The notes under the pieces were generated by a model. It ran no database searches, was not told where the DNA came from, and saw only the letters and a program-made list of their open reading frames with translations. The translations under genes and the position numbers were made by a program. Shown piece after piece: positions 3,782-63,294 of a stretch of DNA of 64,000 nt. Each line of letters opens with the position of its first letter. Within the stretch, counting starts at the first letter, position 1. Origin of the DNA: Eutreptiella sp. 'Long Island Sound 2002' (lineage: Eukaryota; Euglenozoa; Euglenophyceae; Eutreptiales; Eutreptiaceae); NCBI GenBank assembly GCA_964036045.1, contig OZ038387.1:57506427-57570426 (forward strand). The letters run 5' to 3'.

Positions 3782-5428
3782 CTATCGACTGAGGCAATCC
3801 GCCACAGTGTTGTCCTTCCCCGGGACGTATACGACGCTGAGGTCGAACTTGTGGAACGTCTCGTGCCATCGGGCCCTCCTTGCCGCCGGTCCCGAGGGGG
3901 TGTCGACGTGCTCCTTGTGCCAGCTCTGCAAGGGCTGATGGTCCGTACATACCACCACCGGTTGTAATCCAATGTGGCCAGACCACTTCCTGAGCGCACA
4001 AACAATGGCGTATGTCTCCTTCTCCCTCGCGGTCCAGGTTTGACGTTGGCCCTCGGCCAGGATCCGGCTCCAAAACGCCACGGGTACGTGCGACCCGTCG
4101 TCCCAGACTTGTTCGAGGACTGCCCCTACAGCATAGTCCGAGGCGTCCGTCCGTAGCACGAATCCCTTGTCCGGGTCCACCAGGAATAGCCCCAGCTGCC
4201 CCAGGAGTCGCTCCTTCGGGCGGCTGAACGCATCTTCGGCCTCAGGGGTCCAGGCAAGCTTCTTCTTGCTCCCCTTCCGACCATCGAACTTGCCCACCTG
4301 CAGCATCTTGTGCAGCGGCCCCGACAGTTCTGCATACATCCGGACATAGCCCGAATAGTAATTGCAGAACCCCATGAAGGATCGGAGTTCACTGATGGTC
4401 TGGGGCTTCTCCCATTGGTGCAGGGACGCCAGCTTCCCAGGCATGGGACGGCGTTGCCCGTGACCAACCAGGTGACCCGCGAACTCCACTTCCCTCACGA
4501 AGAGTGAGGCTTTGGTGGGCTTGCACACCATGTTGTGCTTGTCCAGCTCGCTGAGCACTCGGCGCAGATCCTTCTCATGCGCTTCGATGAGCTCGTCCTC
4601 AGTCATGTCTTCCGTGCCGGACCCGATGATGATGTCATCTACAAAGGGGTCGGCACAATCCCGGACAGGACCGAGTAGGTCCTCCATCATGCGCTGGAAA
4701 GCGGCGTTGCCATTCTTGGCGCCCATAGGCACCACTTTACACTGCATGGGCCCCAGCGGCGTCGACATTGCTGTGCAGGGCCTGGAGTCCGGGTGTAGCG
4801 GCATCTGGTGATAGCCATGTTTCAGGTCTAACACCGTGAAGATCCGCTTCTTTTGTTGTTTTTGGAGGATGGTGTCGATCAGAGGAAGCGAGTACGAGTC
4901 GTGCTCGGTTTGCTCGTTCAAACCCCTGTAATCAACCACCAACCTCCACTCGCCCTTCTCCTTCTTGGGCACGATAAAGGCTGGGCTGGCCAACTCACTG
5001 TCGGAGGGTTCGATCCATCCCCGCTCAATGAACTCGGCCAACAGCTTCTTCATGGCCTCGGCCCGATGGCCCTGAAGTTGGTACTCCCGATGACGATAGA
5101 TCTTGGGGTTCGGCTTCAGCTTGATCCTCGCTGTGCCAAACCTCCCACGATCTGGAGGGTTCTTGTTGGCGATGCCACTGAATAGCCGCGGATAGGCATG
5201 TATCAGCCTCTCCTTCAGCTCGGCGACCTTCGGGTTCTCCTGGGCCTCTTCAGCCGCTTGCTTCGGTATCGATACAACCGACCACACTGCGGTATAGGCC
5301 TCTTCCGGGTCCGAGTTCGACTTCTCCTCGGTCGATATGCCGTCTTCATCGTCGTGGGGCATGCTTCCCACCGACAATCTCCGGAAATTTGCGGCATCGG
5401 CCGAGTTCTTGTCGCTACCGGCCCCCAT
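3782..5428 (-). pseudogene. Reverse transcriptase and RNase H domains of gag-pol
   Basis: The RT region begins with a gypsy-type connection segment, then LVVDYRGLNEQT, the palm block VLDLKHGYHQMPL and the catalytic block FVDDII (Phe in place of the commoner Tyr). The RT thumb block GFCNYYSGYVRMY follows. RNase H follows with RTDASDYAVGAVL (Asp), WTAREKETYAIV (Glu) and VCTDHQPLQSW (Asp), ending at VPGKDNTVADCLSR. TAG at 3782 separates it from the integrase although both lie in the same frame. Upstream, two TAA codons at 5429-5431 and 5477-5479 separate it from the protease, again in the same frame. The catalytic residues are intact and the damage seen is nonsense substitution only. Confidence 0.9.
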
Positions 5429-5476
5429 TTATGGAAAATCCCACGTCGGCGGGTCCGACCCAAGCGGACCATCATA

Positions 5477-7069
5477 TTAGTCCGCGATGTGATCCATGAC
5501 CCTAGCCACGAACTCATCCTTCTCGTACTTGCCGGTGACCAACATCTTGTCATCCCACCAATGCGGAGATGTGACCATGGCCCGCCCCTTCTTGGCTGCC
5601 ACACGGTCGTGCATCCGCATCCGCATGTAGTTGACGATGTGGTCGATCTTGGCGTGGGACAGGACGTCAATGCCATCCATTGGCTGATCCGTCCCTTCCT
5701 TGGGCTCAAACATCACCCGCATGGGAACCGCCTCAACCCTACGGATGAATGCTTCATCACCTGTGGGGTGGGCTTGCGCCCCATCCACCAGGAAAGCCTT
5801 GGTACCCAACGCTTGACCCGGGGAGGGCATTGATAAGCCCTTGGTGTCGATGAACAACTCCTCCTCTGGCCCGAATGACATCTCTTTCAGGGTGATGGAA
5901 TCCAGCGTCGACTTGAGACCTTCCAGCGGACATGGGGTGGATCCTATGCCAGTTATGACCAGGATCCCCTTCGCCCCATCCGCGACGATCTTCTCCACCG
6001 TACGTCTGGTATTTTCCAGGGAGCCATGCCAATACATGGGCCCCCACTCCTTCAAACCCCAATGCCTGTGCCAGGCTGAGTCTCCTCGATGCCAATGCCT
6101 CCTACACTTCCTCAAAAGTGGGGCATCCCGGGAAGCGAAGACGTCTGTCTCGGGCGCTTCGGCTCCCAGCGTCTGGATCATCCTGGCATACACCTGCGGC
6201 GCCATTCCATACTCCGTGAGCTGAACTCCGCGGTCTCCTCTGGACTTGGCACCCACAGCTTGCACCGCTTGGACGATCCGATCCTCTTCCTCAGCATTCC
6301 ATTGGGATGATCCGCATGCATAGTCCGTGGACAGCCATGTAAGGCATTCATTATCCTCCCGGACCAGCGTTGCACGATCGGGAAGGGCTCCAATGGCGTT
6401 TCCCACCATGAAGTCATACCCCATGATCATATCCCAATCTGTAATGTCGGCCACATAGAAGTTCCCGGATAGAGTGCTTCTCTTCGCCAAATCAGGGCGG
6501 TTCAAGCGCTCATGCTCCCAGAATTCCATACTGATAGTGGCCTCATGGATGCCACCACCCATAATCTCTCCATTGGCCACCTTCAGGCGTACCGGTCTAC
6601 GGCTGGGCTGCAGGGATTCCTCCTTGAACAACCCTCTCCAGACCAGGCTTACCTGGGCACCCGTATCCACCAGAACATCCACCACCAACTCCTGTTGTCC
6701 GCACCGTACACGCACCTTCAAGTGCAACTGCCGCTCGTCACCCTGCGGTGTATGGACAACTCTCACGGCATGCAACTCTAGCACATCCGGGTGCATCAGG
6801 ACTTCGAGGGTATGGTCACGGATGGTGTAGATCCTGGGCTGGTCCTGGCCGTCCACGGGGCTCTCCGTGGTCGCTCCTTCTTTCTTGCCACGTCCCTTGC
6901 CCACATACACTTCCCTTGGCAGGGCGCTCCAGGGGTTGGGAGTGGCAAAACTCAGTGGTTTTGGCTCTTCTGGAGCCTTCTTCGGCAGCTGATGTGCCTT
7001 CGCTTTCTCTAGGATTCCACTGATTTTCGGAGGAGAGACCTCCGAGGTCCCACTCCCGTGGGGGCTCCT
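5477..7069 (-). pseudogene. Retropepsin-type aspartic protease domain of gag-pol
   Basis: The catalytic block is VDVLVDTGAQVSLVW, a DTGA-type aspartic protease signature, followed by a flap-like region and the GYDFM...GNAIG segment typical of the second half of retropepsins. In-frame coding extends up to the TAG at 7070-7072; the first ATG after that stop is at 6910. The region downstream of the protease core (roughly 5500-6300) has no named domain and probably forms the linker towards RT. The frame closes at TAA 5477-5479. Confidence 0.82.
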
Positions 7070-7072
7070 CTA

Positions 7073-7696
7073 GACGTGGCCTGCCGCAGCTCCCTCCTGC
7101 TGCGATCCGCTCAGACTTTGTCCGCCACATTGCTGGGCTTTGACTTCCTCCAACGTCCTCAACATGTCCTCAGCAACCTCCTCGATCGACCTCACGCGTC
7201 GGTCTGGGCCGGGTCCTGCACCATAGCCTTTTCCTCCGCCTTTCCCTTGGGCCTTTCCTTGGCCTTTTCCACCGTCTCCGCCCTTTGCCTTCCAATCGGC
7301 AATTCGTTGCTCCTTGGGCTTCTTGTCGGGATGGGCGGCGAAGTAGGTCTTCTTCTCCTCCTCATATACCTTGCAATGCCGATGGTCATGTGCATGGTTG
7401 TTCCCCTTGCCGTAGCAGACCCAGCAACCGTTGTGCTGTGATCTGTACTCGCGGAACGAGAGCGGCGGGTTCCCGATCCTCCGCGGTTCTCTGCGTCTCT
7501 TGGTCCTTGGGTCCAGGCGGTTCCACCTGGACCTGTCCTGCCCATTCTCCTTCATATTGTGCGCTACGAACGCGAAGAAGTGGGCTCCTTCATGATCCTC
7601 TGGGGTGGTCGCGGTCCTGAGATCTTGGCCGCTTCCACTCCCTTCCTCCGCGGTGCCGACCGTGTCCCCCTTGACCTCTCCGTGGTGGCGATCTTC
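7073..7696 (-). pseudogene. Gag nucleocapsid segment with zinc knuckle
   Basis: This in-frame stretch lies between TGA 7697-7699 and TAG 7070-7072. It encodes a basic Arg/Lys-rich region with a CCHC-like knuckle (CWVCYGKGNNHAHDHRHC), then a Gly/Lys-rich tract (GGDGGKGQGKAQGKGGG). Nucleocapsid segments like this bind element RNA during packaging and reverse transcription. It is continuous in register with the capsid part upstream and the protease downstream. Confidence 0.72.
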
Positions 7697-8374
7697 TCAA
7701 TGACCTCGATGTCCTTGGCCTTGTCGATCCTGCACGTGGGCCTCGTTCTTGGCGTTGAGCTTCAGCTGCACCGTGATGTACTTCACGATCTTGTCCGGGC
7801 TCATGCGGGCGAAGATGACCTGCATCCTCAGCGGCTCTCCGCGCCTCCACTCCACGTTGTTGAGGCGCATCAGCCTTTGCCCCACGGTGTCGCCGAATAC
7901 CTCCACGTAGACGGCGTTCTTCAACCCCAACATTCGGCTGCGCTCGCCGAGATTTCGCCGGAAAAACTCCATTATTCCGGCGTGGGTGTCCTCCGATGCC
8001 ATGATCTGTACGGCCGCGCGCTTCTTTGCTCTCTTCTTCTCCTCGTCCTCCACTCGCCTCTTCCAGTGGCCGGGGAGGACGTCCTTCAGCAGGTGTCGGA
8101 TCTCGCTGGCCTCATTCCAGTCCTCCACCAGCTTGAGGCTTCTTCGGTACTTGCGGATGTACCGATTCCATTCCCGGACCCTCAATTCCCCGCGCTCCAG
8201 CGGCAGCGGAATGGACTACAAATCCTCCAACTTCTGGTTGGGGGCGTCCACTCGCTCCTCGTCCTCCAGCCACTGGAGGCAGGCCTGCTCCGTCTGGATC
8301 AATCCCTCGCGGATCTGATCCCTGAGCTCCTCCTTCAGGTCCTGCGCCAGCCTGTGTGGAAATGTCCGACATAC
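7697..8374 (-). pseudogene. Gag capsid-like segment
   Basis: The in-frame sequence includes helical blocks such as HRLAQDLKEELRDQIREGL, CLQWLEDEERVDAPNQKLEDL and ELRVREWNRYIRKY, resembling the retrotransposon-gag (capsid) helical domain. It carries an internal TAG at 8216-8218. It is bounded by TGA 8375-8377 upstream and TGA 7697-7699 downstream, all in the same register. Assignment to capsid rests on position and helical character. Confidence 0.62.
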
Positions 8375-9841
8375 TCACTTGTCCCTTGGCGCTCCCTTCA
8401 TCTCGCCTACGACCTCCTCGGCGAAGTCCTCCCAATCCAGGATGAAGTCATCCAGGTTGGAGGGGTTGCCATCGTAGTAGGGGATTTTGATTCCCCTGAG
8501 GTCGTCAATCCTGATGGCGTCTCCGACGTCCGCAGCCACCACTCCACCAAGACGGATACCACCTGTGGCCGGGGGGTGTGAGTACACCCCCCGTACATCC
8601 CTCTCCTCCATGGAGTGAGGTCCAGTTGGACCTGAACCCATGGGGTTTGGGATGCGGGACGGACTTGCTCCACCGGCTGTCCATATCCCCGTAGTGGGGT
8701 CCTTCACCCACAGGTTTCCGCCTGGATGGCCTGGACCATGTCCGTCGGCCCTTCCCATGGTTCGCCCCTGCATGGTCTGGTGTTGGATCTCCTCTTCCGC
8801 ATAAACTGCATGGGCAGTCGTAGTGGTTGGTGGATCCTGGGCGGCATGGGACATCTGTACCATCAGGCTCCTCAGGTCCGGGGTTGCGTGCTCTTCCCGC
8901 ATGGACCCAGCCGGTGCCGTATGCTCCCCGAGCATTATGGATTCGCTGAACATGGGAACAAACGGCAGCGCACCCGGGTCAACACGCGGAGGTGCGTATG
9001 GTGCCTCTGCAGGGCCGCCCATGGGTTTATCCATGGCGCTCCTGAGGGTCTTAACCCGCTCCACCAGCTCTGCCGTTGCCGGCCTTGCCGGGACCTCTGG
9101 GCCCCAGGCGAGGGGTTGTAACTCCTCCAGCCTTTTCAGGCATCCCGACATGTCCTCCACCAGGTGGAGGAGGCTGTTCACCACTCGCTGCTGCTTCTGC
9201 AGGGCCATCTCCAGCTTCTCCCGGTACCGGTCCTGCTCCGCTCGCAGCTCCGCCATGTCTCTCTCCGCTGCCGACTGGTCATCCAGGATCCCCGCGACGT
9301 CCTCCTCTAGGCCGTCCTTTGCGTTGTCCAGGCGGTCGAGGTGCTGCACGTTGGCGTCCATCCCCATCTTTGGGTACTTGCCGATGAGGAAGGATACGTG
9401 CTCGCAGTGGCACTCAACGTGCTTTCCACCTGATCCGGCGCATCCCACGGTTCCCGGCGCCTCGGAATCCTCCGCCATGGGTGTGTCGCCCATGCTATCC
9501 CGCGTTGGCTCCGTGTGCCGGGCCACAGGCGCCGTTCTGGCTCTGGGAGGCCTCTCCAACCCCTCGGCGTCATGCTCCAGGCTGGGTTTGGGGGCCGTGT
9601 GCGCCCTTGTGGGCGGTATGGCCATCTCCTCCGACTCCGAAAGAAAAGCGGTCCGATAGCCATCGGAATGCCCCTCGGAATCAGCTGACCACAGCCTGAC
9701 CGGGCTGGGATCTGTCTCCATCGCCCTGGCTTCCGCCGCGGGTTTTGGGGACCCGCGCTTACGGTAACGCCGGGCTCTGCCATTGCTGCCAGTCTCCTCC
9801 AACTCCTCGCAGCGGAGCGGAGATTGCAAGCCTTGCGGCAT
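8375..9841 (-). pseudogene. N-terminal Gag region with coiled coil
   Basis: A 488-codon frame from ATG 9841 starts the polyprotein. An in-frame stop just upstream (near 9850) supports this start, although the true start could lie in another frame. Residues about 190-270 are rich in Glu/Arg/Gln/Leu with heptad-like spacing (RDMAELRAEQDRYREKLEMAL) and probably form a coiled coil. The rest is Pro/Gly-rich and disordered. The end (DDFILDWEDFAEEVVGEM) leads into the capsid helices. The TGA at 8375 breaks the join. Confidence 0.6.
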
Positions 9842-10185
9842 TGCCTTTCACACATGGAGGCTAGGTCCTCCATGTCTAGCCCATGTCCTGCAAGGGCTCT
9901 CCGTTCTGAGCATCTTCGCTCTTCTCGGGCTTCCAAATCCGGCGTCGACTCCACGGACTCAACGATCTGCACCCGGGGCGTCCTTGGGCAGGGCTCATGA
10001 GGGCCCAAGTCCCCGGTGCGGCGGTAGGGGGCAGGTACTCCTCTGCTACCATAAAGAAGGTCCCTACCAGGACCGGCCCCTGCTGTACCCCTTCCACCAT
10101 TTCCTGTCACTCCTATGGTCTTGCTTCTCACCAGGTTCTGCACGATCTTGCCCTATCCTGCACAATTTCCCACAAAAAATAGTAA

Positions 10186-48859: not shown

Positions 48860-51098
48860 CAACACGTGGACTGTGCTGTGCGGCAGGTGCCTGCAGACAG
48901 AGACCCAAGCATGCTGCTACTGGGAACGGATAGATTCATTAGTCTGCAAAGTTGTGGTGGGTTGTTCTCATCGAGATGTAAATACAGTGTTTACGGGGCA
49001 CGAGTGCCGCCATCTCTCTGCCTCTGTGTCCTGCGAACACCAGGATCAAGCTGTATAGTATGGGATATCAGCAAGGTAAGGATGCAGCAGAATGCATTGG
49101 CTGGTGATCATGCATCGAACAGGATGGAACCAGTTCACTCTTTTTCATTGGCTGCGCAGATGCGCATTAAAATTTTGGGTGAAAGTATGCTCGATTCTTC
49201 GACCGGGTGCTCTGCCTTTTTATCGCACCTGCAGGGACACTGGTTGCAGCGGCCTGTACCATCGTTGTGGTACGATTTTCTCTTTGGCCAAGGCAATGTG
49301 CGAACAGGTGCCCCGTTCTTTCCCAGATCTGTGACCTCTCGGTCTGCAGGGCTGTGAGTCGTTGGGGGCGTCACAGATTCTCCTCGTTAGACGCAATCTG
49401 CATCTGTACCGTGTTTGTGTTGTCACATTTGTGCTGCATTTTTTGAGTGAGACCACGCATGGCGTGGTGTAAGTTTCTTGACCTCCTCCTCTTCCAGCAG
49501 CAGGTTGACGTGTGCCCTTTGGGATGTTTTGACCGTAACCTTGGGTAACCTCGAACCATCTCACCTGCTGACCTACGCCAACGAGCCAAGTGGCAACTGC
49601 GGTGAACCCTCACACGTGGCGCAGACAACAAGCCGACTTCGGGACGTTGTTGCGGTTTCGTCCTACAACCATTCCCCCTGCACGTCTCTTCGGAGTATTC
49701 ACCATTTCGAGGAATTGAACCCCTGTGATCTTGTGCTGCGTAAAGCCGAAAAATGCTCGGTTGAAGCGGTGAGTCCGAGGCACACGTCTGCACTCTGCAC
49801 CCCCCCCCCCCCCAAAAGGAACAATTAACACGTCAGTCTGGGTTCCCCTCCCCGTTGTACCCCATACAAAGCCTTCAGTTCGAGCATTATTTGTGCTATG
49901 ACACAGGCTGTTTGGTTTCTTCAGGTAACTGGCGGCGGCGGCTGGTGGCTCTGTCCCAAGTAGGAAGGATTGCAACGGTGAATCATTGAGAGATCCTTCT
50001 CGGTTCTGCTTTTATGGCCAGCGGTTGGCGTAAGGGAAGATAGAAAGTGGTGTTTCCTGTAGTTGCACGAATGATACACGTTTTTGGGTGTTTCTAGGCC
50101 CATATGGTCGACCCATTGCAGTCATTTGCAGTGCAGCGGACAAGTAAGTCGTGGAAATCAGCTTGCAGACCGTGTTATTTGCACGCGTCCATTATCGAAT
50201 GAATTGTTTGCGGCTTCCCGAGTATATTGATTCCTCTCCACACATTTTCCCAGGGCAGGCAGACTCTCGTTGACTCCACATCATTTTGAACAACACACTG
50301 TTATTTCACCAGAAAGGGAGGTTAGGTTAGGTAGGAAGGTTTGGCAAGTAAAGGGGGGGCGACCACCGAAGGCGGAGGGCTAAGAGATTCACACGCAGGG
50401 GTGTGTGTTCAAAGTCTAGCACGTTAGGGCACACTGTTTATCCCACGGAGCACAATCACCCGGTTTTTCAACGACTGACCCTCCTGCCTCTGGAGCGATT
50501 ATCTATTTTTTTTGTGATGTTTCATCCCACGCTACACGTTTCCCCAATGATTTGTTTGGAGCGGCTTTTTGCTGTAGTTCTGTAATTTTGCCCACCCAAG
50601 CGCTCATTCACAAGGAATCGTCTCCGCAACCTATCGTCAGCGTCCATGATTGCTGTTTTTCAAGTGGTTTGATAGTGCTTGCAATGAAGGATGTTTTCTA
50701 GCATTGTACTGTAGGCGGGTTGACACTGAAACAGTGACCAAGTATTCTTGCCTCTGGCGGCATGGCATCATGAGGTGACTTACACCAAGCAGAATGGTGC
50801 CACCCCACTGTGCCAATTGATGACAGTAGATGACATTGTGGGCACTCCCATTTCCTGGACCCATCCCCTCGAAGTTTGCTTCCTGCGCCCTGCACTGCTC
50901 TTTTATCCTCGGAGCGATTTCACCCCTTCCCCTGACCTGCATTTTTTTGTTTTCACCCAACAGTACACAACCCCAGCACCCCGTCGGAGTGCAGCATTTT
51001 ACCTCTCGCGAGGTCCACAAAATGGGAGTGGCAACCCTCAAACACACATCTGGTTGCCAACCTGCTTGTCCTCAAGCAGACGGTTCAGTTGGGGAACG
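48860..51098 (+). CDS. Partial multi-exon WD40-repeat gene, possibly a Mio/GATOR2-subunit homologue
   Basis: Candidate exons: 48860-48950 plus 49044-49075 (joined length 123, no stop), 49350-49410, about 49488-49768, 50098-50143, 50964-51098. The last three chain in phase. Donors include AAG|GTAAGG, GCG|GTGAGT and CAA|GTAAGT. Blocks in order: MLLLGTDRFISL then SSCIVWDISK; SQILLVRRNLHLYR; VDPLQSFAV; and TKWEWQPSNTHLVANLL ending in VQL. Order and spacing recall the WD40 propeller of Mio (a GATOR2 subunit in TORC1 amino-acid signalling), which has an IWDI-S-K strand, an LLLAG..RNL strand, a VDP segment and a W-P...LLA strand. This is a by-eye match from memory. Exon borders between 49076 and 49487 do not chain cleanly, and the C-terminal zinc domain of Mio was not found in the window. 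Confidence 0.4.
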
Positions 51099-51459
51099 GT
51101 AATTTCTGCTGTTCATGATATTTGGACATTTGGAAAGTGTGTTTCATGCACACACATTTCTGCATAGCTGCTTGCAGTGTTGATTACGAGTTGGCTGTTT
51201 GGTCAAGCTCCGATGCAGACGTGCTGCTTCTGTACAATTGCAGGGGAGTTTATAATCCTCCATATTTTTTTCGGCGCTCATCACAGGTCTGAGCGCAAAT
51301 ATTTTTGTTTTGGCTTTAGCTCTTACTCTGGCAAGGGCTTCATGACCCTGGTGTAAGTGGAGGAACTTGTTGGGCTTGGACTGCTTTTCCCCCCCTCGCA
51401 ATATTGGTTGGACCCGGTACTGCATCCGCCTGTAAGGTGTTGGGTGTTATGGGACTGTT

Positions 51460-51540
51460 GTTTCCATTGGCTCATTGGCCCGAGGTTCTTGTCTGGTATT
51501 TCCATTGGCTCATTTGCCGAAGGTTCTTGTATGTTCAGGA
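51460..51540 (+). repeat. Short imperfect tandem duplication
   Basis: TTTCCATTGGCTCATT...GAGGTTCTTGT is followed at once by TTTCCATTGGCTCATT...GAAGGTTCTTGT, a period of about 38 bp. Confidence 0.75.
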
Positions 51541-51822
51541 GGACAGGAACATAGACACAAGCTGAGTCGATCAATGGACAGTTGGTTGGAAGCGAGCAAT
51601 GCATGGTGTGGCCACATTTGTGCCTACCGACAATTATGTGTTTCTGGGCAGTGCAGTTGCATAGAGGTCTGGTTCGCTTTTTTTTTGCACTTTGGCAAAA
51701 TGGGAGGGAAGATTTTCATGGGGTAGTGCAGTATTACACTTGCACTAAAGACTTCACTGCTGTCCCGGGGAATCTGGCAGAGAAATTTCGAGGGGGGGAA
51801 ATTTCGGCAACCCCCCAAATTT

Positions 51823-51924
51823 TGGTGTTTAGTCTGTTATTGGGAGCTGCACAGGGCATACACTGAAAAATTCTGGTGTTTAGTCTATAATTGGGAGCTG
51901 CTCAATGGATTCACTGAAAAATCC
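51823..51924 (+). repeat. About 51-bp imperfect tandem duplication
   Basis: TGGTGTTTAGTCT...TTGGGAGCTGC...CACTGAAAAAT occurs twice in tandem with a few mismatches. Confidence 0.8.
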
Positions 51925-52095
51925 TCTCTGCGGCCCGCCGGATTTGACCGTACCTGGGTTCGGCATACCTATCGGCTCGGCGTACTTTCGGCGGGCTGAA
52001 GGTACCGCCGTACCTCCGGCCGAAGATACGGTTTAATCCGTCACCCCCCTTTGTGCTAGGGCCACAGGCAAGGCGGTGCACACACAAGGTGGAAC

Positions 52096-52233
52096 TGCAG
52101 TTAGTATAGCGCAGCGGAGTAACGAAAGTTCTGCCACCGGGCCCCCAGCACTGCCCCTCCCCCCCTGTCCTACTTCCCCTCCTCCCTCCTCCCCTCCTTA
52201 GCCTTTTTATAATTTAAAGGCGGGGATACATCG
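52096..52233 (+). repeat. Terminal repeat A1 of the YR element
   Basis: Starts TGCAGTTAGTATAGCGCAGC and ends AAAGGCGGGGATACATCG; about 138 bp, matching A2 with few differences. Preceded by GAAC at 52092-52095. Confidence 0.88.
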
Positions 52234-52451
52234 GGTCATCCAATGGGCTCGGCCAAAAATGATGGGGCTTGGGACTAGAGACGTCTAAAAGACGAGGACC
52301 CCGCGGCGAAGTCAACAGCATGGGCCCACCTGATTCAGACGCCCTGGATGGCCCGTATGATCCCGCTTCAGCATCGTACAGGTGGCGGGCGTGGCAGGAT
52401 GGTTTCGGGACGGAGTCAGCTGGAGTGCGGTGAAGCTGGCCAGGACCTTCC

Positions 52452-53874
52452 ATGAGACGCTTGGGATCTCGTTTCAATCCCCTGATCCTGCTGTATGGGC
52501 TGACACTTGCCTGGGGACTAGAGGTGACTGCGTTCAGCCTGTCTGTGGATGAGGCGGCCGTCGGGTTTGCTGTCTGCGACTGCCAAGCCGCCTGCAAAAT
52601 GGCGAGCAGGAGAGGAGGAGTGGGGATCAAGGGTGAGAGACACTCTCAGGGGAAGAACGCAAAGCCCGAGACCAATAGTGGTATGGCTGTGGACGAGGAG
52701 GCGGGCGCCGCAGCCGGTGAGCGCGAAGGAGGTGGGGGGCTGGCCGCGGCTGAGGAGGACGAACTGACGTACAAGGAGCCCTCCTTCAAAAATGCCAGGT
52801 GGATGAGAAAGAGGCCCGGAGCCCTGCGGTGGACGGGCAAACTGTGCCGCCTGCTTCAGAGGTTAATGGAGGCCGAGGAGTCTGAGACTGTGACAGAGGT
52901 GTCCACGATCATTGACGATGTCTGGCAATTGCTCCTTGATTGCGACAAGTCGGGTAAGGATGCGGTCAAGGCAAAAATAAAGGAGGTCAAAAAGAGGAAC
53001 AAGAAGAAGGCCAAAAAACAGAGGCGAAAGGAGAAAAAGAAGGAGATGAAGGAGCGCCGATCATCTCGGAGGGGAAAAGGGAGGCGCAGGTCCTCCGACT
53101 CGGATTCGTCGTCCACGGACAGTAGCAGCGACAGTGCGTCCGATACATCATCCTCGGCAAGCTCCAGCTCATCGGGGCGCCACTCAAAGCGCAAAAGCAG
53201 AGGTGGCACGCAGGGGAGCACGAGTCAGCCGGAGTTCAAGTGGATAGACGGAATGCGCCAGGGATGTGCAGTACTATGAACTTAGAGAGTTGCCTAGAGA
53301 GCAACCCAGAGAGTTGCTCCTGCCCAATACCTTCACCCCCATCCAGCTCCCCTGCATTTCTGTTGGAGGCCCTGCTCTGCTGCGAGCGAGCCCTCCGGTG
53401 GTTGGCCGGAGGACAGCAGCCAACAAAAAAAAAACCAGCAGACCTCTGGCCCGAAAACCAAACATGAAACAGCCCACGCCCCCGGGCCCGGGCCGTGCCA
53501 CAGGCCAAGAATGTGGCCGCGGGTCCCGAGGATTGACCATCCTCCAGGGCACTCAGAAGGGGGTTTGGATGTGGGGTGCAGGGCACCCAAGCCTCATGCA
53601 CATGGAAACGCAGAGTTGTGGACGGCCTGAGGACGGAGGTGTGGGAACAGCAAAAACAGTCAAACGACCCCCGCAACAACCAGCACAACCCCCAGTACGC
53701 CAACTACTGGGTGCCGCTGACACGCAGGCGGCACACCATGCCACAACCAGCACAGCCCTGGCACACCAACTACTGGGCTCTGCGAACGCGGAAACAACAT
53801 CAGCAGGAGCACCGGTTGCAGCGGCCGACAGAATGCAGCGACCCGACGCAACATGCGAAGGGAAGAACGGGTGA
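52452..53874 (+). pseudogene. Gag-like protein of the YR element, N-terminal part, frameshifted
   Basis: The first frame (ATG 52452 to TGA 53279) has a helical segment (KLCRLLQRLMEAEESETVTE), a strongly basic Lys tract (KKRNKKKAKKQRRKEKKK) and Ser/Asp and Ser runs (DSDSSSTDSSSDSASDTSSS). Just before the stop the reading moves to the next frame at about 53255. There ARDVQYYELRELPREQPREL and a Pro/Gln/Ala-rich continuation stay open to 53874. Basic plus Ser-rich composition suits an RNA-binding Gag, but no named Gag domain is recognised. Confidence 0.6.
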
Positions 53875-54457
53875 CTGTCCAGGTCCCCGTAAAGAGACAA
53901 CCACCCGACGGAATGTCGCAGGAATGTCACACGGGGGGTGGGGCGCTGGTGGATGACCCCCGCGATGGAGTGGGCACACAGGACGTGCCCGGCAGCCCCG
54001 AAGGCACGCCCCATCACTTCAGACCACAAAGCCGCGGCGGTCTTCACCTCCGTGGACGCCTTGTGCAACGTCAACACTGTCCTCGGCAACGGGCAACGCC
54101 CACGACGCGAGGGCACTCTCCAAATGTCAGAGTGAAGTCTGAGTGCAGTCCCCCCAACGAGGGCGTTAGGCTGCACCTGGGCAAAGTGATGCTCTTCCGC
54201 ACATCAGACAGGGACAGGCAGGGATGCATTGGAAGGGAAAGGAACCCAAAGGGGGGGGGGGGTCAGAAGCGGTTAGACAGGCGGTTGCAGGAGGTTGCAG
54301 GCGGGTATTATCGGTTACAAATGCCGTTGAGGCCGGCACTCACCGTCAGGGGGACAGTGGCTGGGCGTAGGCTGGGCGCCCTGGAGGGGGGCGGGGGTAA
54401 CCCCCCCCTTCCAATGCATCCCTGCCTCACCCCCAACTCAAAGGCGGTTGGAGGAGG

Positions 54458-54778
54458 TTGCCACAGCGGTTGGGGGCGGTTACTGTCGGTTGCAATGCCA
54501 TTGAAGCTGGCACTCGCCGTCAGGGGGACAGTGGCTGCCCCCCTAAGCAAAACCTCTGCAACACTCTGCTCAAAACACTCCGCAGCCGCTGCACGCCCGG
54601 GGGTTGCGTCGGACTCATTCCCACGCCTCCACATGCCGTAGGAGCTTTCACTTTCAGCAAGAAAACAGGAGACTGGGTTAATTGCGAAAACCCTCCAAAA
54701 ACGGCATGCCCGGAGTGTGGTGGCCACCATTGGTGGTTTGATAGGGAGAAGCACGGGTGTAAAGGCTCGAGGAAGTGA
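54458..54778 (+). pseudogene. Gag C-terminal zinc-binding segment of the YR element
   Basis: The frame ends with a cysteine/histidine cluster CPECGGHHWWFDREKHGC before TGA 54776-54778. A zinc knuckle-like segment at the end of Gag, just before the next ORF, is common in YR elements. How it joins the upstream Gag frame (1.2 kb away, different register) is unclear. The space between contains direct repeats around CTCACCGTCAGGGGGACAG (near 54340 and 54515). Confidence 0.5.
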
Positions 54779-55700
54779 CTGCGGAGCCATGACGATGGAG
54801 ACGGGGCTGCAGGAGGCACACGGGGGGACGAGGAGTGCGAGTGCGAGTGGCCGTGGGCGACCGCGCGCGACAGACTCGAGGCGGCGATGTTTGACGAGTA
54901 CGGGACGGCTTTTGATGCCAAGACAGTGCGCCGCCTGCAGGATGGTACCCTCGACGGGTATCTGCGGCAGCTCAGGCGACTGGCCAGGCTGGAGCGGATG
55001 CGACCAGGCGACGGTGCTCGGGGTATACTAGAAGCCAGGCTGATGCAGGTTGTGCAGGGCGACCTGTCAGAGAGCCGCAAAAATCGTTCTGGCTGCGGCG
55101 AGGGTGGCCGAAAAAATGGAGTGGCTTGCCCCGGTAGTGCGGAAGTCTGATTGGTACCTGGTTATGTCTATCGAACAGCGGCGCTGCAAAGAGCAGCGGG
55201 CGGAGGCGAAGGAGTGGGCGCAACTGGAGGACCTGTGCAAGCTGTGTGCGGCTGCCTCCGGCTTTGCGGAATGGGAGGCGGTGGCGCTGGCGTGCGTGTC
55301 GGTGGGACACTGCCTTCGCGGTTCCGAGGCGGGGGCTGGGGTGGGGCAGGAAGATGAAGGAGTGCGGTTTTTTGGAACAAAGTTTAGGAGGGGGGTCCAG
55401 CGACAGGAAGTGGGGCCCAGGGTGCGAGAATGGTTACAGTTCCTGGCGAAACTCAGGGCACTCAAGGGGTTGCACCCCGACAGGGGGGCGTGGCACGAGT
55501 CTAGGGAAGCGCTAGGGAAGACGTTGGTCAGCCTGCTGGAGAGGGGGGAGGGGAAGAAAACTGTCCGGTGGCACAGTTTCCGTAGGATGGGGGCAGCACA
55601 ACTTCGGGAAATGGGGGCGCCGCTCACAACAATCATGCTGTGGGGGGGCTGGAAGTCAGCGAAAGTCGCGCAGATGTATACCGAGGCCCCCCCCAGGTGA
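54779..55700 (+). pseudogene. Tyrosine recombinase (integrase) of the YR retrotransposon
   Basis: The N-terminal core-binding part (TAKTVRRLQDGTLDGYLRQL-type region, frame from 54779) shifts frame near 55065. The catalytic part runs on to TGA at 55698-55700. The catalytic residues seen are box I Arg in GHCLRGSEAG, HSFRR (His and second Arg), the WGGWKS block at the position of the third basic/aromatic residue, and nucleophile Tyr in AQMYTEAP. These enzymes insert the circular cDNA by strand exchange at a short core. The RT frame starts inside its 3' end (overlap of about 60 bases, different register). This placement before RT is unusual. Confidence 0.85.
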
Positions 55701-57758
55701 AAGTTTGCCCGCTCGGGAAAAATCCCATGGCCCATGTGGGGGGGGGGGGGGGGCAGAGCCATGCTACTGCACAAAGCAGGGCTCCACACTCTCTTTCTGG
55801 CCGTCATGGATACGCCGGGAAATCGCCTTCGCGGCCGGAGAAGCTTCCCGACTTGCTGGGGGATCGCCTGAGGGGGGTGAGAATGCACGCAAACGAGAAA
55901 GGACAGTGTCCCCGAGTGCGAGTGCTGCGAGGACAATTGCGAGATGCGGCGAGGGCGATAAGCGAAATGCGGGGCGTCAAGGTGCACAGGCAAGAGATGG
56001 TGCGTAACCTCATTACGGGGATGGGTGAGGCAGTGCTCAGACTTGAGTGTGGAGAGGAGGGTCTGGATACGCTGTGCAGTGTGTTGACAAAAGTTGGGGA
56101 GGGGGACTTAGACGAGGAGGACGATGGGTACTACAGTAGTAGTGACGAGGAGGGGGTGGTTACCGAGGAAATGGCTGCTCGGGGGGTGGGGGAAGCGGGG
56201 TGTGTGACAGTGTCGGATAAGATCTGGAACAGCCTAGTCCCTCGTGACCTTCTGAGGGTGTACCGGAGGCAGTTGAGGGAGGACAGTGCGGGGGTTGAAA
56301 AGTCACAAGGGGGGAGACCGGGGCCTGTGGACGCAATGCTGGAATGCCTCAGAACTGAGACTAAGGGACTGCGCGGAACAAAGCGACCCGAGAAGGCCAA
56401 AATGTTCCTTACGTGGAAGAATACACTAAAATGCCGAGCCATTCTTGATGCGCGGGGAGTCAACGCAAGCGACCCCCGGAAGCCCCCAAAGTTCAGACTC
56501 CCTGGGCTGGAGGCCATCCGCCACTGGATGGGACGTGCGCGCCCTCGGCGTGTGGGGGGAGGCAGGTGCCGTGTTTTTTTGGCTAAACTGGACCTGCAGA
56601 ATGCTTACTGGAGCATCCGCCTTCCCACCGCATGGCGCAGTGTTTTTGTGTTCGGGGGGCGGGTGTAGGCGTTTTCGATATGCAAGGCTGCCTTTCGGAT
56701 GGGCCTATAGCCCTGTGATATGTCAGAAGCTGGTATCCTCTGTTATCCGGGGGGCCTTGCCGAGACGTGGTGTGCTGGGTTGGGTGTATCTGGACGACAT
56801 TTTACTGTCGTGCAGGAGCAAGAGTCGGCTGAGGGGGGCTGTGAGGGACTGCATTCGAAGGCTGAGACGTGCGGGTTTTATTGTGGGGGCTAGCCGGAAG
56901 TCCTAGCCGGAACCAACTGAGCGCCTCGGTTTTATTGGTAAGCAAATTGACACCAACTCTGGGAGAATCAGCAATGCGGTGGATGCCTTGGTCGGTGCTT
57001 TCAGGGCGTGGGTCAGGGGGATGGGCAGGGGGCGCCTGCCCTCAAAGGTTATGGAACGCCTCCTGGGTAAACTGTGCTGGCTGAGCAGGCCCCATGCGGG
57101 TCCGGGCGCCTTCCTGGCGGGCGCATATCGAGGTTTGCAGAGTGGGAAAGGGGTGTTTGGGAGGGGGGTCTGCAAAGGGGTGGCGAAAGTGCTCCTGTTT
57201 TCTTGTGTCCCTCAGCCGTGTGACCCTCCAGGGCCTGGTGGACGAGGGGCCCGGGAGGTGTTCGTGGATGCGGCTTCAGAGGGCAAAGTTTTTCGACTGG
57301 GAGTTGTTGGGGGGGGGGATTACTATCGATCGGAGGTGTGTCCGCTCTAGGTGGACTCCCTGCAGCAGGCGGAGCTGTATGCGCTGTACATCGTTGTTAA
57401 GGTGGCATCCTATCGTGGTTTTGAAAGAATTTGTGTGGGTTCAGACAGCAACGTAGCTAGGTCTCAGATTAATGAGCTTCGGGCGTCGGTGCATGCCGAT
57501 TCTGAGCAACAAATACTCCGGCGCCTGTTTTGGCTCAGGTGCTGGAGTACTGTTAGTGTCGAGTCCTTCAGGGTGCCGTCTTTTTTAAATGCGGCCGACC
57601 CCCTGAGTAGGGAGACAAGCTTCCAGTCTCGGAAACAGGCCATTGCCGAAGCAGCAAGGCGTTGTGAGATGTGGGAAAGAGCCGTCGACACGAAGTACAT
57701 GGGTCTGATGGAGATGATTCGCCCCCCGTGGAGATTCAAGGGGGAGGTGGGGGACTGA
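55640..57758 (+). pseudogene. Reverse transcriptase-RNase H of the YR retrotransposon
   Basis: The N-terminal region is unassigned and acidic (DEEDDGYYSSSDEEG). RT blocks: FLTWKNTLKCRAILDARGVN, AKLDLQNAYWSIRLP (first catalytic Asp), YARLPFGWAYSPVICQKLV and VYLDDILLS (catalytic DD). RNase H follows: VFVDAASEGK, QQAELYALYIV, GSDSNVARSQI and the terminal AADPLSR. The sequence shifts register near 56655 in a GGGGGG run between the first two RT palm blocks. In-frame TAG codons lie at 56904-56906 and 57348-57350. After each TAG the homology continues at once, so these are point lesions or sequencing errors. The frame ends at TGA 57756-57758, about 50 bases before B1. Confidence 0.85.
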
Positions 57759-57810
57759 TGACGCGACGGTTACGAAGGAGAAATGGACGCGCAGTCGCGC
57801 GGCAAAATCT

Positions 57811-57877
57811 GCTGTCCGTGGAGTAGTGCATCTGTCCTGATTGCTTTGTCCAAGGGGAGGGGTGGGGCATGCAGAAC
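57811..57877 (+). repeat. Split repeat B1 of the YR element
   Basis: 67 bp, GCTGTCCGTGGAGTAGTGCA...GCATGCAGAAC. It matches B2 at 58103-58169 with a few substitutions and is fused at GAAC (57874-57877) to A2. Confidence 0.88.
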
Positions 57878-58017
57878 TGCAGTTAGTATAGCGCAGCGGG
57901 GTAACGAAAGTTCTGCCACCGGGCCCCTAGCACTCCCCCCCCCCCCCCCTGTCCTGCTTCCCCTCTTCCCTCCTCCCCTCCTTAGCCTTTTTTCAATTTA
58001 AAGGCGGGGGTACATCG
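57878..58017 (+). repeat. Split repeat A2 of the YR element
   Basis: About 140 bp, a second copy of A1, with length change only in the poly-C run. Confidence 0.88.
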
Positions 58018-58102
58018 ACCCACCCGCCTGCCCTGTGTCTTGTCCCGGTGCCTGCCAGGGTTGAAGAAAGGACAGCCCTTCATATGTTCCTCTATCACTG
58101 TC

Positions 58103-58169
58103 GCTGTCCGTGGAATAGTGCATCTGTCCTGATTGCTTGGTCCAGGGGGAGGGGTGGGGCAGGCAGAAC
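58103..58169 (+). repeat. Split repeat B2 of the YR element, right end
   Basis: 67 bp ending GGCAGAAC, then ACACAAAAGG of the minisatellite. The 85 bases between A2 and B2 (58018-58102) match neither A nor B. Confidence 0.88.
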
Positions 58170-58730
58170 ACACAAAAGGGAGTTTGTGGCCACCGCAAGA
58201 GTCATGTTATTAAAGGGGCCACAGGCAAGGCGGAACACACAAAGACGGTATGTGAGTCATGTTACTAAAGGGGCCACAGGCAAAGCGGTGCACACACAAG
58301 GCGGAACACACAAAAGGCGGTCTGTGGCCACCGCAGGAGTCATGTTATCAAAGGGGCCACAGGCAAGGTGGTAGACACAGAAGGCGGTGCACACACTGAA
58401 GGCGGAACACACAAAAGGCGGTCTGTGGCCACCGCAAGAGTCATGTTATTAAAGGGGCCACAGGCAAAGCGGTACACACAGAAGGCAGTGCACACACAAG
58501 GTGTAACACACAAAAGGCCGTTTGTAGCCACCGCAGGAGTCATGTTACTAAAGGGGCCACAGGCAAGGGGGTACACAGAAAAGGTTGTGTAAACACAAGG
58601 CCGACCGCACAAAAGGCGGTCCGTGGCCACCGCACGAGTCATGTTACTAAAGGGGCCAGTGGCAAAGCGGTGCACACACAAGGCGGAACACACAAAAGGC
58701 GGTCTGTGGCCACCGCAAGCGTCTTGTTCA
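58170..58730 (+). repeat. Minisatellite, about six units of 83-102 bp
   Basis: Units begin TCTGTGGCCACCGCA, continue AGTCATGTTA(C/T)TAAAGGGGCC and end GGCGGAACACACAAAAGGCGG. Units differ by small substitutions and indels. The sequence left of the YR element (52050-52095: GGGCCACAGGCAAGGCGGTG, then CACACACAAGGTGGAAC) is the front part of the same unit. Confidence 0.88.
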
Positions 58731-59678
58731 CCTCCCCCCCCATGGGGGGCTTTTAATTGGGGGGCCGGGGAATGGGGCCCCGCCCCCCTCTAAAAGCAGT
58801 CCTTATGCCATTATATACGATACGCGCGCCGAAATGAAACATACCTCAAAAGTCTACAATGCAGCCCCTCTAAATGACCGCCTCTGTACCGTGGACAGAG
58901 CCCACCGCAGGCCTCAGTCCACAGAAAGGATTCCCGCGAGTAAGAAAAAGTCACTGCCATGTCTTTCTTGGAGGGTTTGATCCAGGCCAAGCCCCCCTTA
59001 AAACCCTTTTGTTGATGCTAAGACTAACTTAAGGATTTTTATCTCTCTTTTGAATGCCTAAAGTACACTTTCTTAAAGTAACTAGGGTTGTGACCCTAGC
59101 CCCCCCCATGAAGGATGGACCCCATGGACCCCATGGAGGATATACCGAAATAAAATAGGCATTTCATGCTTTAGGCCTTGGAGCTTAAGCCTAGTGGTCT
59201 CCCATCCCAAGACCCCTATTCTCAATTGTTTCTACCACTTATTGTGGTTCTACTTTTTAACTGTTTCTGAATTCAGTTGCTTGGCCAAGTCATTTTTTGT
59301 GTTGGCCCGATATCTCTGCGACACATTCCTAACCAGCACCATTTCACCCAAAAGAGTGCACATGAAGTGCCTTATGCTATCTTGGAGGCCAGAGTCAGTC
59401 CAGTTTTCATATAAAATCTTTTGTATTATCCAATTGTGATTGAATCTTTGTGTTCATACCTGCTTTGTTTATCTGCAGCCCTTCTGTGTTACATTGGATT
59501 TCAAAACTATTCTTTCATTCGATCCACATCCTGTTCTTGCTCTACTTGCTGCTTTGGTTTGGGTTTTCAACTTCAAAACCTGCAGGATTTCATCAAAATA
59601 TCTAGGGCATTAATCAAGGACATCTTTCTGGTAGCAAAGACAGTCCCTTGTGACCTTTGGACCCGACTCTGAGAAGAA
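58731..59678 (+). other. Flank and leader of the right-hand LTR element
   Basis: No gene is visible. G/C-runs and a short tandem ATGGACCCCATGGACCCCATGG occur near 59115-59140. TGGTCTCCCATCCCAAGA at about 59192 starts with TGG and could be a primer-binding site. The LTR pair cannot be defined because the element leaves the window. Confidence 0.4.
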
Positions 59679-61917
59679 GTGCAGCACACAAAGCTCAACA
59701 ACAAGTTCATCATGTCCACGCCAAGCGTCAGGACCTGGCCCATAAGAACTGTCCAAGTACAAATGGGCAGCATGGCCCACCCTATCGGTGAACCACCTTA
59801 CCGAGCTCCACATCTGAGTGTCGCATTTGGGTCCCAAGGAGATCCAGATCGCAGAAGGGCGGAAGAAAATACAGTCCTTACCACCGAGGCCTTAGCGGCC
59901 CACGGTGGAGACAGCCTTCATCATCTCCACAGGCGAGTAGCAGCCTCAGTCTCCCGATCCGCCTGTCCAGCATCATCCTCAACAGCGATTGGAGGCCCTG
60001 AGGAATACGAGGAAGTGAGGAAGAAAATGGATGAATACATCCTTTATGAGGAGTACTACAAATCCATTCGTGGAGAAGATGGGGAGGAGCCATTGGCAGT
60101 ACTCGGATCCAGACCACGTACAGACCTAGGGTCCTACACGCACCGTGGCCCGGCGTCCGACACAGCCGAGACAGCATCCCTGCCAAGACGACCGAGACCC
60201 GAGTATCCAAGAGCATGTTGTCCAACCCCAAGGGCTCCCGAAGTGGGCCCGACTCGAGTTGAGGAAGAACATCATCCAAGGCCAACCTACGGTGCCCTGG
60301 ATCATACAGCCGAACTGCTGGCCAAACTTCTGTCTGGATGAGAAGATCCAGATGTGACGGCCCTATCGCAGGCCATTAAGGCGAAACTGGGTATTGCAGA
60401 ACCCTTACCCAAGCCAGAGTTGTCCTCCCCCTCTCCCGGACTGAGTACCCTGGCCGAAGACCTTAAGAGATCAAGGGTCTCAAGGCTGTTGCCTAAGGTC
60501 ACCCGCCCCAGCCCCTTTCACCCCCGTGCCAGGACAGTGCCCATGGCTGAACTACAGGACGTGCCTGTGACACAAACCGAGAAAAGAGGGCTGTCAACCC
60601 TGGCACCTCTTGCCGGCGCATCACCTTATGGCCTAACTCCGGGGGGTGGGAAAACGGGCAGACCTATTGCCCAGGCGAACATCCAACTGGAACTGCCGGA
60701 GTTCGACCCCAAAAACCTGCCCGAATGGGCAGAAGAATTTGCTGAGTTTCTTTTGCTGACTGGCCAATCCCATGTGGATGTGGCCACCAAATGCTCACTG
60801 CTGAAACGCTCATGCAAAAAGAAAAATTTGCAAAAACAGGTGAAACAGGCTGTGAAAAACCTTTTTCACCTGGGCAGAGGTACTCCAGAAGTTGGAGAAA
60901 ACGTTCCCAGTCTATGAGACTGACCTCAGTGTGCGCACACAGATAGAGGAGCTACCTATGCTCCCTGAGTTTCCTTCCGCTGCGCGAATCTCTGAATACG
61001 TGTGCGACTTGGAGTATCTGTTTTCGCGGATGAACGTGGGGTCCTACGGAGCCACGGAGCCCCACCTGTGGCTCATGAGTAAGATCCCCCAACGTACGTG
61101 GGATGATTGCCGCTCTACCTCTGAGAGGAAGAGTTGGACCCACTCGTACGATGAACTGGTGGACCTCCTGATTGAGCTAGCTCTTGAGAGGGAGAATGAC
61201 TCCCACATGGAGAAATTCCTCAAGAAGCACTTGGGTCGAGGTGGTACCCCTGACCCCGAACGTGGCGAAGGGAAAGGGCCTAAAAATCCCACTAACACCA
61301 ACCAGGGAGGTGGTAAAGGGAGGGGTAACCTACGTGCCATGAATGAGGTTAAACCTGATGCAAGTACACCCCCTCTGTTCTACTGCAAACCTGTCAATGA
61401 CAAGGGGGGGCCTTGTCATGCCTCTGACTGCGATCACCGCAGTAGCTGTATGCTGCAGATGAAACGACAACAGCATACCAAGGATGGGAAACCTGTGACC
61501 CATCAGGATCATTTCAGGTGTACCATCACCTGTGGCTATTGTGGCAAACGTCGTCAGCACGAAGACGAATGTCACATAAAGAAACGCGAGAGTGATAAAC
61601 TCAAACGTCAGGAGGCCGACCGCCGGAAGACCCAAACACCCACCAAAAACCCCCAGAATGGGGATAAAGGTGGTAAAGGAGGTGGCAAGGGGGGTGGCAA
61701 AAATGGACCCCCTAACCCCCAGAGGCGCTCATCAGCGCCCGTTGCTACACCCACTCCTGCTGCTACACCCGCTCCTGCCGCAGGTGATCCCAAGAAGCGC
61801 CCCCAGGGGGATAACGCTACCCCTGAGGGGAATAACTCCAAGAAGAGGCGCTTGGCTTGGATGGCCAGGTCCCTCATTGCTGCAGGGGTGGATGTCAAGT
61901 TCCCTGATGAGGAGTAG
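59679..61917 (+). pseudogene. Gag of the right-hand LTR element
   Basis: The start could be ATG 59679 or 59712. The frame is cut by TGA 60339, resumes in register (ALSQAIKAKLGIAEPLPKPE) and shifts by one base near 60860. It then continues as ISEYVCDLEYLFSRMNVGSY, PHLWLMSKIPQRTWDDCRS and DELVDLLIELALERENDS. Two Cys/His clusters follow (CKPV...CHASDCDH..SC and CGYCGKRRQHEDEC, a CCHC knuckle). After these come Lys/Gly-rich (GKGGGKGGGK) and Pro/Ala-rich tracts. TAG 61915 ends it, with the next domain continuing in the same register. Confidence 0.75.
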
Positions 61918-61941
61918 GGGGGCGGCTCCGAAGAGGAGGAC

Positions 61942-63294
61942 TTGGTTTTTTGGATCCTCGTGAAAATCGGGGATCAAGTTTTTGGAGCGGTGCTTGACAC
62001 GTGTGCAACACTTTCCATAGTGGTCCGGCACCTGCTAAAGACTTTCAAGAAAACTAAGACCGTGGCCATAAGAGTAGGGGATGGGCGTACCATCCATTCC
62101 TTGAAGGGGGTCGATGTGACTATATGCCTGGGCGACGAAACCGTGACCCAACACTGCAGAGTGCTGGACACCGACGCCTTGGACATCGTCATTGGTACAG
62201 ACTTCCTAGGAAGAAACCCCCAGGTAAAAATGCTGTCTCTCCAGCGCCCCTATTCTTTGCACTGCAACTTTGGCAGTGGGCTGTTCTCCGTACCTTTGGA
62301 GCTGTCAGGACGAAAAGAGTCTGGATTGCGCTACACATCCAAGACTAACTATCGTACTGAAAACTACCAATTGGCCCGTCACGTTCTTGAAAATGGACTG
62401 GCGGCCCTTCAGGTAAACCTGGATGAGATCCAGGTGGAATTCTTTGCGAGCCAACAACAGCACATCATGCTGTTGTACTGCTCGAAACAATTGAACAATG
62501 CTTTCCATTTCTTCTTGAAAGCAATGGGCCTAGCGTATGCTAACCCTCCCTTCTCCCTGCTCGCGAAGGTTCTAACCAAAATCGCTTATGAGGGAGGAAG
62601 GGTTGTCATGTGCACCCCTGACTGGGGCTGCTCTGGTGAACATACTTACTGGTGCCGTATGCTAGATCAAATGACCGTGGGAAGAGTGCAACTCCCCGAC
62701 GGCCCCATCTATGTGCTTGAGGACTCAGACACAGCTATGCAGGCCCCTCAGTGGGCCAGTTTCCCGTCCATCGTCGATGGATCTCTCAATCTTGTACCCC
62801 TGTGTGACCTACACCGGGTTCTACTGAAAGAGGTCATGGCCGAAAATCCCGGCCCGACCCTTTCTGATCTCAAAAATCGATCTCGTGAGCACCTATCTGC
62901 CACACTTACAGGGTGTGAGTCTCCCGATGACTACCTGGAACGTGCAGCTGTAAAGCAGGATGCTGACGACCGGCTGTCTAAGATCGCCAGCACTATCCCT
63001 CCTGTTGATCCCAGCTGTGTTGACCTAAAACACAGTGCCTTCCTTGCCCAGCTGTTGCTAGAGGAGGTAGATCTAGAGTCAACCCCTGAACCCGCTTCCC
63101 CTGTTGGGAAGCCAGTGCTACACATGCAGCCTATGCACACAGGTGAACCCGTGGCCCGGAGTGCTGATGCTCTGGCGCGGCCTGCTGCTAATAACATGCC
63201 ATTGTCTAAGCATGACACTCAGGAACTCCGGCGGCTGTTGTACCTGAAGGCCGAAGGTATTGAGCGCCAAGAGCGGCTGCAATACCTCAAATAG
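61942..63294 (+). pseudogene. Aspartic protease-like domain and spacer of the right-hand LTR element
   Basis: WILVKIGDQVFGAVLDTCAT matches the N-terminal retropepsin block, but the expected DTG(A) reads DTC(A). VVRHLLKTFKK and DALDIVIGTDFLGRNPQVKM form the second half. The C-terminal 300 residues (YWCRMLDQMTVG, LLLEEVDLESTPEPASPVG and so on) have no named domain. It is in the same register as Gag upstream. TAG 63292 interrupts before the in-register continuation MLPDPEIPLVYSLHYGQQYP. Confidence 0.72.

Follow-up and report, generated by a model that had tools for sequence, protein, structure and literature searches.

A split-repeat tyrosine recombinase retrotransposon of Eutreptiella that probably joins behind a host C and brings GAAC to its right junction

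The insertion of retrotransposons with a tyrosine recombinase (YR) is so far known largely through models. For DIRS1-like elements, which are YR retrotransposons, a joined junction and insertion without duplication are described in the available excerpts of PMC3266345. In the VIPER/TATE elements of kinetoplastids, the excerpts of PMC12278014 and PMC6681497 report the order Gag-like, YR, reverse transcriptase (RT)/RNase H, repeats arranged as A1 / B1-A2-B2, and a lack of target duplications. All these features are shared by a retrotransposon copy of Eutreptiella sp. 'Long Island Sound 2002', which occupies positions 52092-58169 of an analysed stretch of 64,000 nt on contig OZ038387.1 (hereafter the window, whose numbering is used throughout). 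We consider it quite probable that this copy represents a recently active, multi-copy YR retrotransposon which joins after a host C, supplies GAAC on its right side and causes no duplication.

The copy is organized by split direct repeats according to the plan A1...B1-GAAC-A2...B2-GAAC, and unless stated otherwise its features are given for the forward strand. The left terminal repeat A1 (52096-52233) recurs as the direct repeat A2 (57878-58017) with 92% identity in 144 columns, and B1 (57811-57873) recurs as the right terminal repeat B2 (58103-58165) with 94% identity over 67 nt, GAAC counted in. A2 and B2 are separated by a spacer of 85 nt (58018-58102). As claimed by an earlier sequence-only reading of this DNA, GAAC is found in front of A1 (52092-52095), exactly at the B1/A2 boundary (57874-57877) and behind B2 (58166-58169).

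The element interrupts a minisatellite unit. The left half of this unit (52059-52095, in its 37 nt 95% identical to unit 58271-58307) ends with the GAAC preceding A1, and its right half is followed by more units of ~99-101 nt (58170-58728). If the flanks are rejoined with one GAAC, two units of the right flank can be aligned to them free of gaps (92% identity in 77 nt and 88% in 76 nt); alignments to the remaining units show small gaps or reduced identity. The 21-mer GGCGGAACACACAAAAGGCGG occurs three times exactly and six times with at most three mismatches, one of the latter being the right junction itself (mean of 0 in 100 shuffles). Thus, the earlier statements that removal of the element under retention of one GAAC restores a unit, and that unoccupied target units are located close by, are well supported.

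The same insertion is found again 16.6 kb downstream at locus L009, as part of a duplication that extends over at least 11 kb with 97-99% identity. Due to these shared surroundings, the window copy and L009 are a single insertion event seen twice. The segmental duplication, which carries the insertion along, comprises 50592-61753 of the window and a region of G000:C10 from ~57573579 onwards.

Sister copies were sought in the source assembly (2.28 Gb, 2205 contigs). For the left end the best 40 of 533 candidates were scored, and for the right end, with a probe of spacer and B2, the best 40 of 363. Left junctions were read at 39 places outside the window and at a second element in L020; after removal of L041 and L047 as duplicates of L040 and L039, 38 distinct sites remained. 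The 45 right junctions comprise 14 from the 20 loci L009-L028 and 31 from the right-end search. L010, L016, the first element of L020, L022, L024, and L028 are without a clear B2 and stand outside these 14 right ends. In case of L010, a B-like end is followed by GAAC and preceded by an apparent internal deletion, and this copy was excluded from the counts. The window event was entered once, as L009; only among the 12 internal junctions and among the 15 joined sites are window and L009 both represented. Identical left flanks at two places were observed for L040 (C1939) and L041 (C25) as well as for L039 and L047 (both C9), and represent alternative contigs or further duplications. In L020, a second family copy is situated at ~8786 (with L052), ~8 kb from the first and in the same orientation.

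The two ends of the family behave differently. At the 38 distinct left sites the last four letters before A1 are AAAC (9), GAAC (6), TAAC (5), CAAC (5), GGTC (2), and AATC (2), and nine further types occur once each. C occupies position -1 in 37 cases, position -2 holds either A (33) or T (5), and A is found 28 times at -3, while no bias is present at -4 (G in 11 of 38, p 0.48). At the right end, GAAC was observed in 43 of the 45 junctions and TAAC in two, and the following base is A in 25 (p 2.6e-6) and T in 7 (p 0.93). The internal B1/A2 junction reads GAAC in all 12 copies which possess it. Both ends are available for 20 copies: 15 of them carry host letters at the left end and GAAC at the right one, no copy has the opposite arrangement, three are uninformative, and two have GAAC at neither end; the uniform direction of the 15 polar copies differs from an even split with p 6e-5. 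The element ends are exact in nearly all copies read, and the host letters of the left end are absent from the internal junction and the right end. An obligatory shared GAAC core, which the sequence-only reading had proposed and had made dependent on the core bases of sister copies, is not supported, since 32 of the 38 left junctions carry other letters.

The assignment of the letters to host and element is based on empty sites. The 15 joined sites were compared with their own flanks, and for five of them (four distinct events) a related stretch extends over the junction. The informative case is L027 with GATC on the left and GAAC on the right: an empty paralogous copy reads GATC and shows 93.75% identity in 80 columns that span the junction, with a single gap located away from it. 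Because of this empty site, the left 4-mer is host DNA and the right GAAC is the element's own. Consistent sites were observed at three more loci, namely the window, where the two GAACs are indistinguishable, L011, with TAAC in two of three units, and L018, with CAAC. In the window the host site read GAAC by chance, which explains GAAC on both sides. No bases were lost or added at the junction where the empty site is known.

As a mechanism we propose that the element RNA carries B1-GAAC-A2 internally, from which reverse transcription would rebuild a joined B-GAAC-A end, either as a circle junction or as its single-strand equivalent, whatever the flanks of the parent. The recombinase would join this end right behind a host C, preferably one within 5'-A(A/T)C|A and at best within AAC|A. 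A new copy would then consist of host DNA through the C followed by A1 on the left, and of B2 with its own GAAC on the right, with no host base duplicated and none lost. The host letters of the left end would be discarded in every round, in agreement with the constancy of GAAC at the internal and the right junction. The internal copy of B1-GAAC-A2 probably renews the junction each round, hence the GAAC at the right. The earlier suggestion that B1-GAAC-A2 is a likely copy of a circle junction, or of an otherwise joined one, is supported by these data. That a joined intermediate exists, that the internal copy serves as its template and that the element's own recombinase catalyses the reaction is inferred. 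The rebuilding of a joined end by reverse transcription agrees with the published models for the DIRS order, as excerpted from PMC3266345.

Judged by the aligned junctions, identity to the whole GAAC is unnecessary, whereas a shared C seems to be needed and A(A/T) preferred before it. Since neither element letters on the left nor host letters on the right were seen, either the overlap of the exchange is 1-3 bp or the outcome of only one strand is inherited. An overlap of several bases between double strands would predict mixed letters, and both the G excess at left -4 and the T excess at right +1 are lacking.

Several observations weigh against this interpretation. The best-scored samples favour similar and probably young copies, and both search probes included GAAC; for the 14 right ends found irrespective of the core, GAAC was observed in 12. 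In L012 and L023 the right end is TAAC with AAAC on the left, in L012 and L029 an A replaces the first T of A1 in the left end, and L029 is without the usual C at -1. Two of the empty sites are weak: the units of L011 are irregular and the third reads TCAG, and the register may slip in the (ACACA)n array that contains L018. The PF00589 match of the recombinase (E 2.3e-5, 24.7 bits) stays under the Pfam cut-off of 27.1, and the joined intermediate itself was not seen. As side observations, the internal junction of L012 is GAAC despite the TAAC at its right end, the A found as first base of A1 in L012 and L029 is the base which host sites favour there, and L029 is situated in an (AC)n run.

An integron-like integration of single strands deserves the most attention among the alternatives, although we judge it to be rather unlikely. 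The B-GAAC-A junction would be a folded single strand, the exchange at AA^C would be confined to one strand, and the join would be completed by replication. Polar junctions at an AAC triplet without exchange of letters fit this scheme, as does the host site, which on the opposite strand shows G in 37, A/T in 38, and T in 28 of the 38 cases. In the excerpts of PMC2727003 and PMC4792948, integron attC sites are characterized by AAC and GTT as their only conserved letters and by recombination at A/C of one strand, and the G-W-T / G-N-T secondary sites of integron enzymes described in part of PMC4618277 resemble the host site. Furthermore, the junction boxes GGCAGAACT and AGTTCTGCC are complementary with inner GTTA and TAAC; the window holds them as GCAGAACT (57871-57878) and AGTTCTGC (57909-57916), and the 8-nt complement was reached by 75 of 100,000 shuffles. 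For DIRS, the title of one study reportedly names a linear single-stranded cDNA. On the other hand, four folds of the window are unconvincing (best z -1.73 with 13 of 200 shuffles as good, others -0.55, 0.09, and 0.90), the opposite strand folds too (L013: -20.1 vs -13.6 kcal/mol), and the outer stem is imperfect in the window, where B1 contributes one mismatch. With copies this similar, covariation is uninformative, and the same junctions are accounted for by a double-strand exchange whose overlap is 1-3 bp. It is a rather unlikely reading, drawn by analogy, that a eukaryotic retrotransposon integrates single-stranded cDNA in the manner of integrons, by means of an attC-like hairpin and a host 5'-A(A/T)C. 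If true, the split direct repeats would serve to renew the attachment site every round.

The capture of linear cDNA at nicks or breaks, with end joining at a microhomology of 1-3 bp and no recombinase involved, agrees with the fact that host and element end share only C, or AAC. We regard this as improbable, because the ends are exact nearly throughout, because bases were neither lost nor gained at known empty sites, and because the strong preference for A(A/T)C|A includes the A at +1, which the element end does not share.

Even less credit is given to a conservative double-strand recombination between a GAAC core of the circle and an identical host GAAC, with the minisatellite as the specific target. 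The window copy fits this model, and the published DIRS1 model, according to the excerpts of PMC3266345, relies on a junction of 3 bp and on the same sequence in the host. Against it stand the six GAACs in 38 left sites without G excess at -4 as well as the use of GATC as a target at L027. Except for the twin L009, the flanks observed at other copies differ from this minisatellite, and the minisatellite was rejected as specific or regular target, contrary to the sequence-only reading. A general liking for tandem arrays is likewise unsupported: an array is spanned by 3 of the 15 joined sites, of which the duplicated pair of window and L009 accounts for two, vs 6 of 72 control windows. An ordinary 4-bp target duplication via staggered cutting, as which the window copy taken alone appears, is practically refuted by unequal 4-mers in 17 of the 20 two-ended copies (15 with GAAC and two with TAAC on the right), in line with the joined sites and with the earlier claim of an insertion without duplication.

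The order of the frames within the element is Gag-like, YR, RT, and RNase H, and the frames are broken. The Gag-like frame (52434-53260, within the open frame 52434-53279) is charged, rich in K and S, and so named by its position only; no Pfam family exceeded the cut-off. It is interrupted by a nested insert of ~1.39 kb that is foreign to the element (53261-54651, no strand assigned, ends approximate) and missing from the twin L009 and the three other copies compared (L011, L013, and L017). Due to this insert, the window copy measures 6.07 kb from A1 to the right GAAC, compared to 4.57-4.73 kb for ten other measured copies. The insert itself contains a direct repeat in two copies as well as an inverted repeat (54211-54237 / 54406-54432), which is imperfect. 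A C/H-rich motif, CPECGGHHWWFDREKHGC, is located at 54708-54761 in the frame 54401-54778 and does not fit the pattern CX2CX4HX4C.

The YR is encoded at 54779-55700 in two frames (54779-55150 and 55044-55700) and was recognized by PF00589, relatives, and alignment. For its sequence, 39 relatives were found at E up to 0.001 with identities of up to 94%; one of them, P0048, which together with P0057 and P0064 belongs to the recombinases of ~45-67% identity, has no Pfam match whatever. In an alignment of 19 rows, several of which are truncated or frame-shifted, the arginine preceding SEA is conserved to at least 90%, while the intact rows contain WHSFRR as well as the last tyrosine. These are the residues expected for catalysis. 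The RT (55586-56906, frames 55586-56668 and 56430-56906) matches PF00078 with E 2.6e-12 and has 86 relatives without informative names, and an RNase H-like region (57351-57758) matches PF13456 (E 6.9e-5, 23.2 bits vs a cut-off of 21.6). In the public gene models P0001, P0002, and P0014, the YR continues into the RT side. With RT, RNase H, a YR under its cut-off, split direct repeats, and no target duplication, the element belongs to the YR retrotransposons of the DIRS order; the sequence-only reading had likewise called it a YR retrotransposon. A methyltransferase-like domain was not matched by Pfam in the window frames or the 12 relatives scanned, although diverged domains might escape. Searches of solved structures by sequence gave a single match to a phospholipase-like chain (E 0.76), judged to be chance; among viral contigs, none of 74 pattern matches was confirmed as a relative, and tRNA and Rfam scans of the window were without matches. 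Elsewhere in the window, frames resembling Ty3-type polyprotein and Gag/protease pieces, with chromodomain-, integrase-, and RT-like text, were noticed by eye at 2003-9847 (reverse strand) and 60856-63294 (forward strand).

With its dozens of insertions, the family forms a natural series that allows host letters to be separated from those of the element at both ends. It shows that insertion does not depend on a host sequence identical with the junction and that the join occurs at one point, and it makes the distinction between double- and single-strand integration concretely testable. A comparable junction survey for a split-repeat YR retrotransposon was not found in our literature search, which covered its sources in part, and no priority is claimed.

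In Tn916-type elements, coupling sequences are brought to one side as short letters by the circle, host letters remain on the other, and the letters vary with each excision; the GAAC of the window family is constant. Integron cassettes (attC/IntI), compared here in their working only, share the AAC triplet, the polar join at a single point and loose G-W-T-like targets, as far as the excerpted sources describe them. They differ in being bacterial, in lacking an RT, and in their long attC hairpins with extrahelical bases, and use of a single strand is only putative for the window element. DIRS1-like elements, in the excerpts of PMC3266345, have inverted terminal repeats and in the model an identical 3-bp host sequence, whereas the window element has direct terminal repeats instead of inverted ones with internal complementary regions, and membership was excluded by this orientation. 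PAT, Toc, and Kangaroo possess split direct repeats and a YR, as here (PMC4157794, in excerpt), and carry a methyltransferase-like domain, a diverged form of which might have gone unmatched in the window element. Ngaro elements, e.g., of Cafeteria, agree in the arrangement A1-[ORFs]-B1A2B2 and the YR, and they have no methyltransferase domain according to parts of PMC8547959; for the window element none was matched by Pfam. Their YR follows RT/RNase H, whereas that of the window (54779-55700) precedes the RT (from 55586), and membership was excluded by gene order. For VIPER/TATE, the CX2CX4HX4C motif of some VIPER copies was not found in the window element, and the likeness concerns order and repeats. 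In its gene order and its repeats, the element of the window appears to be VIPER/TATE-like.

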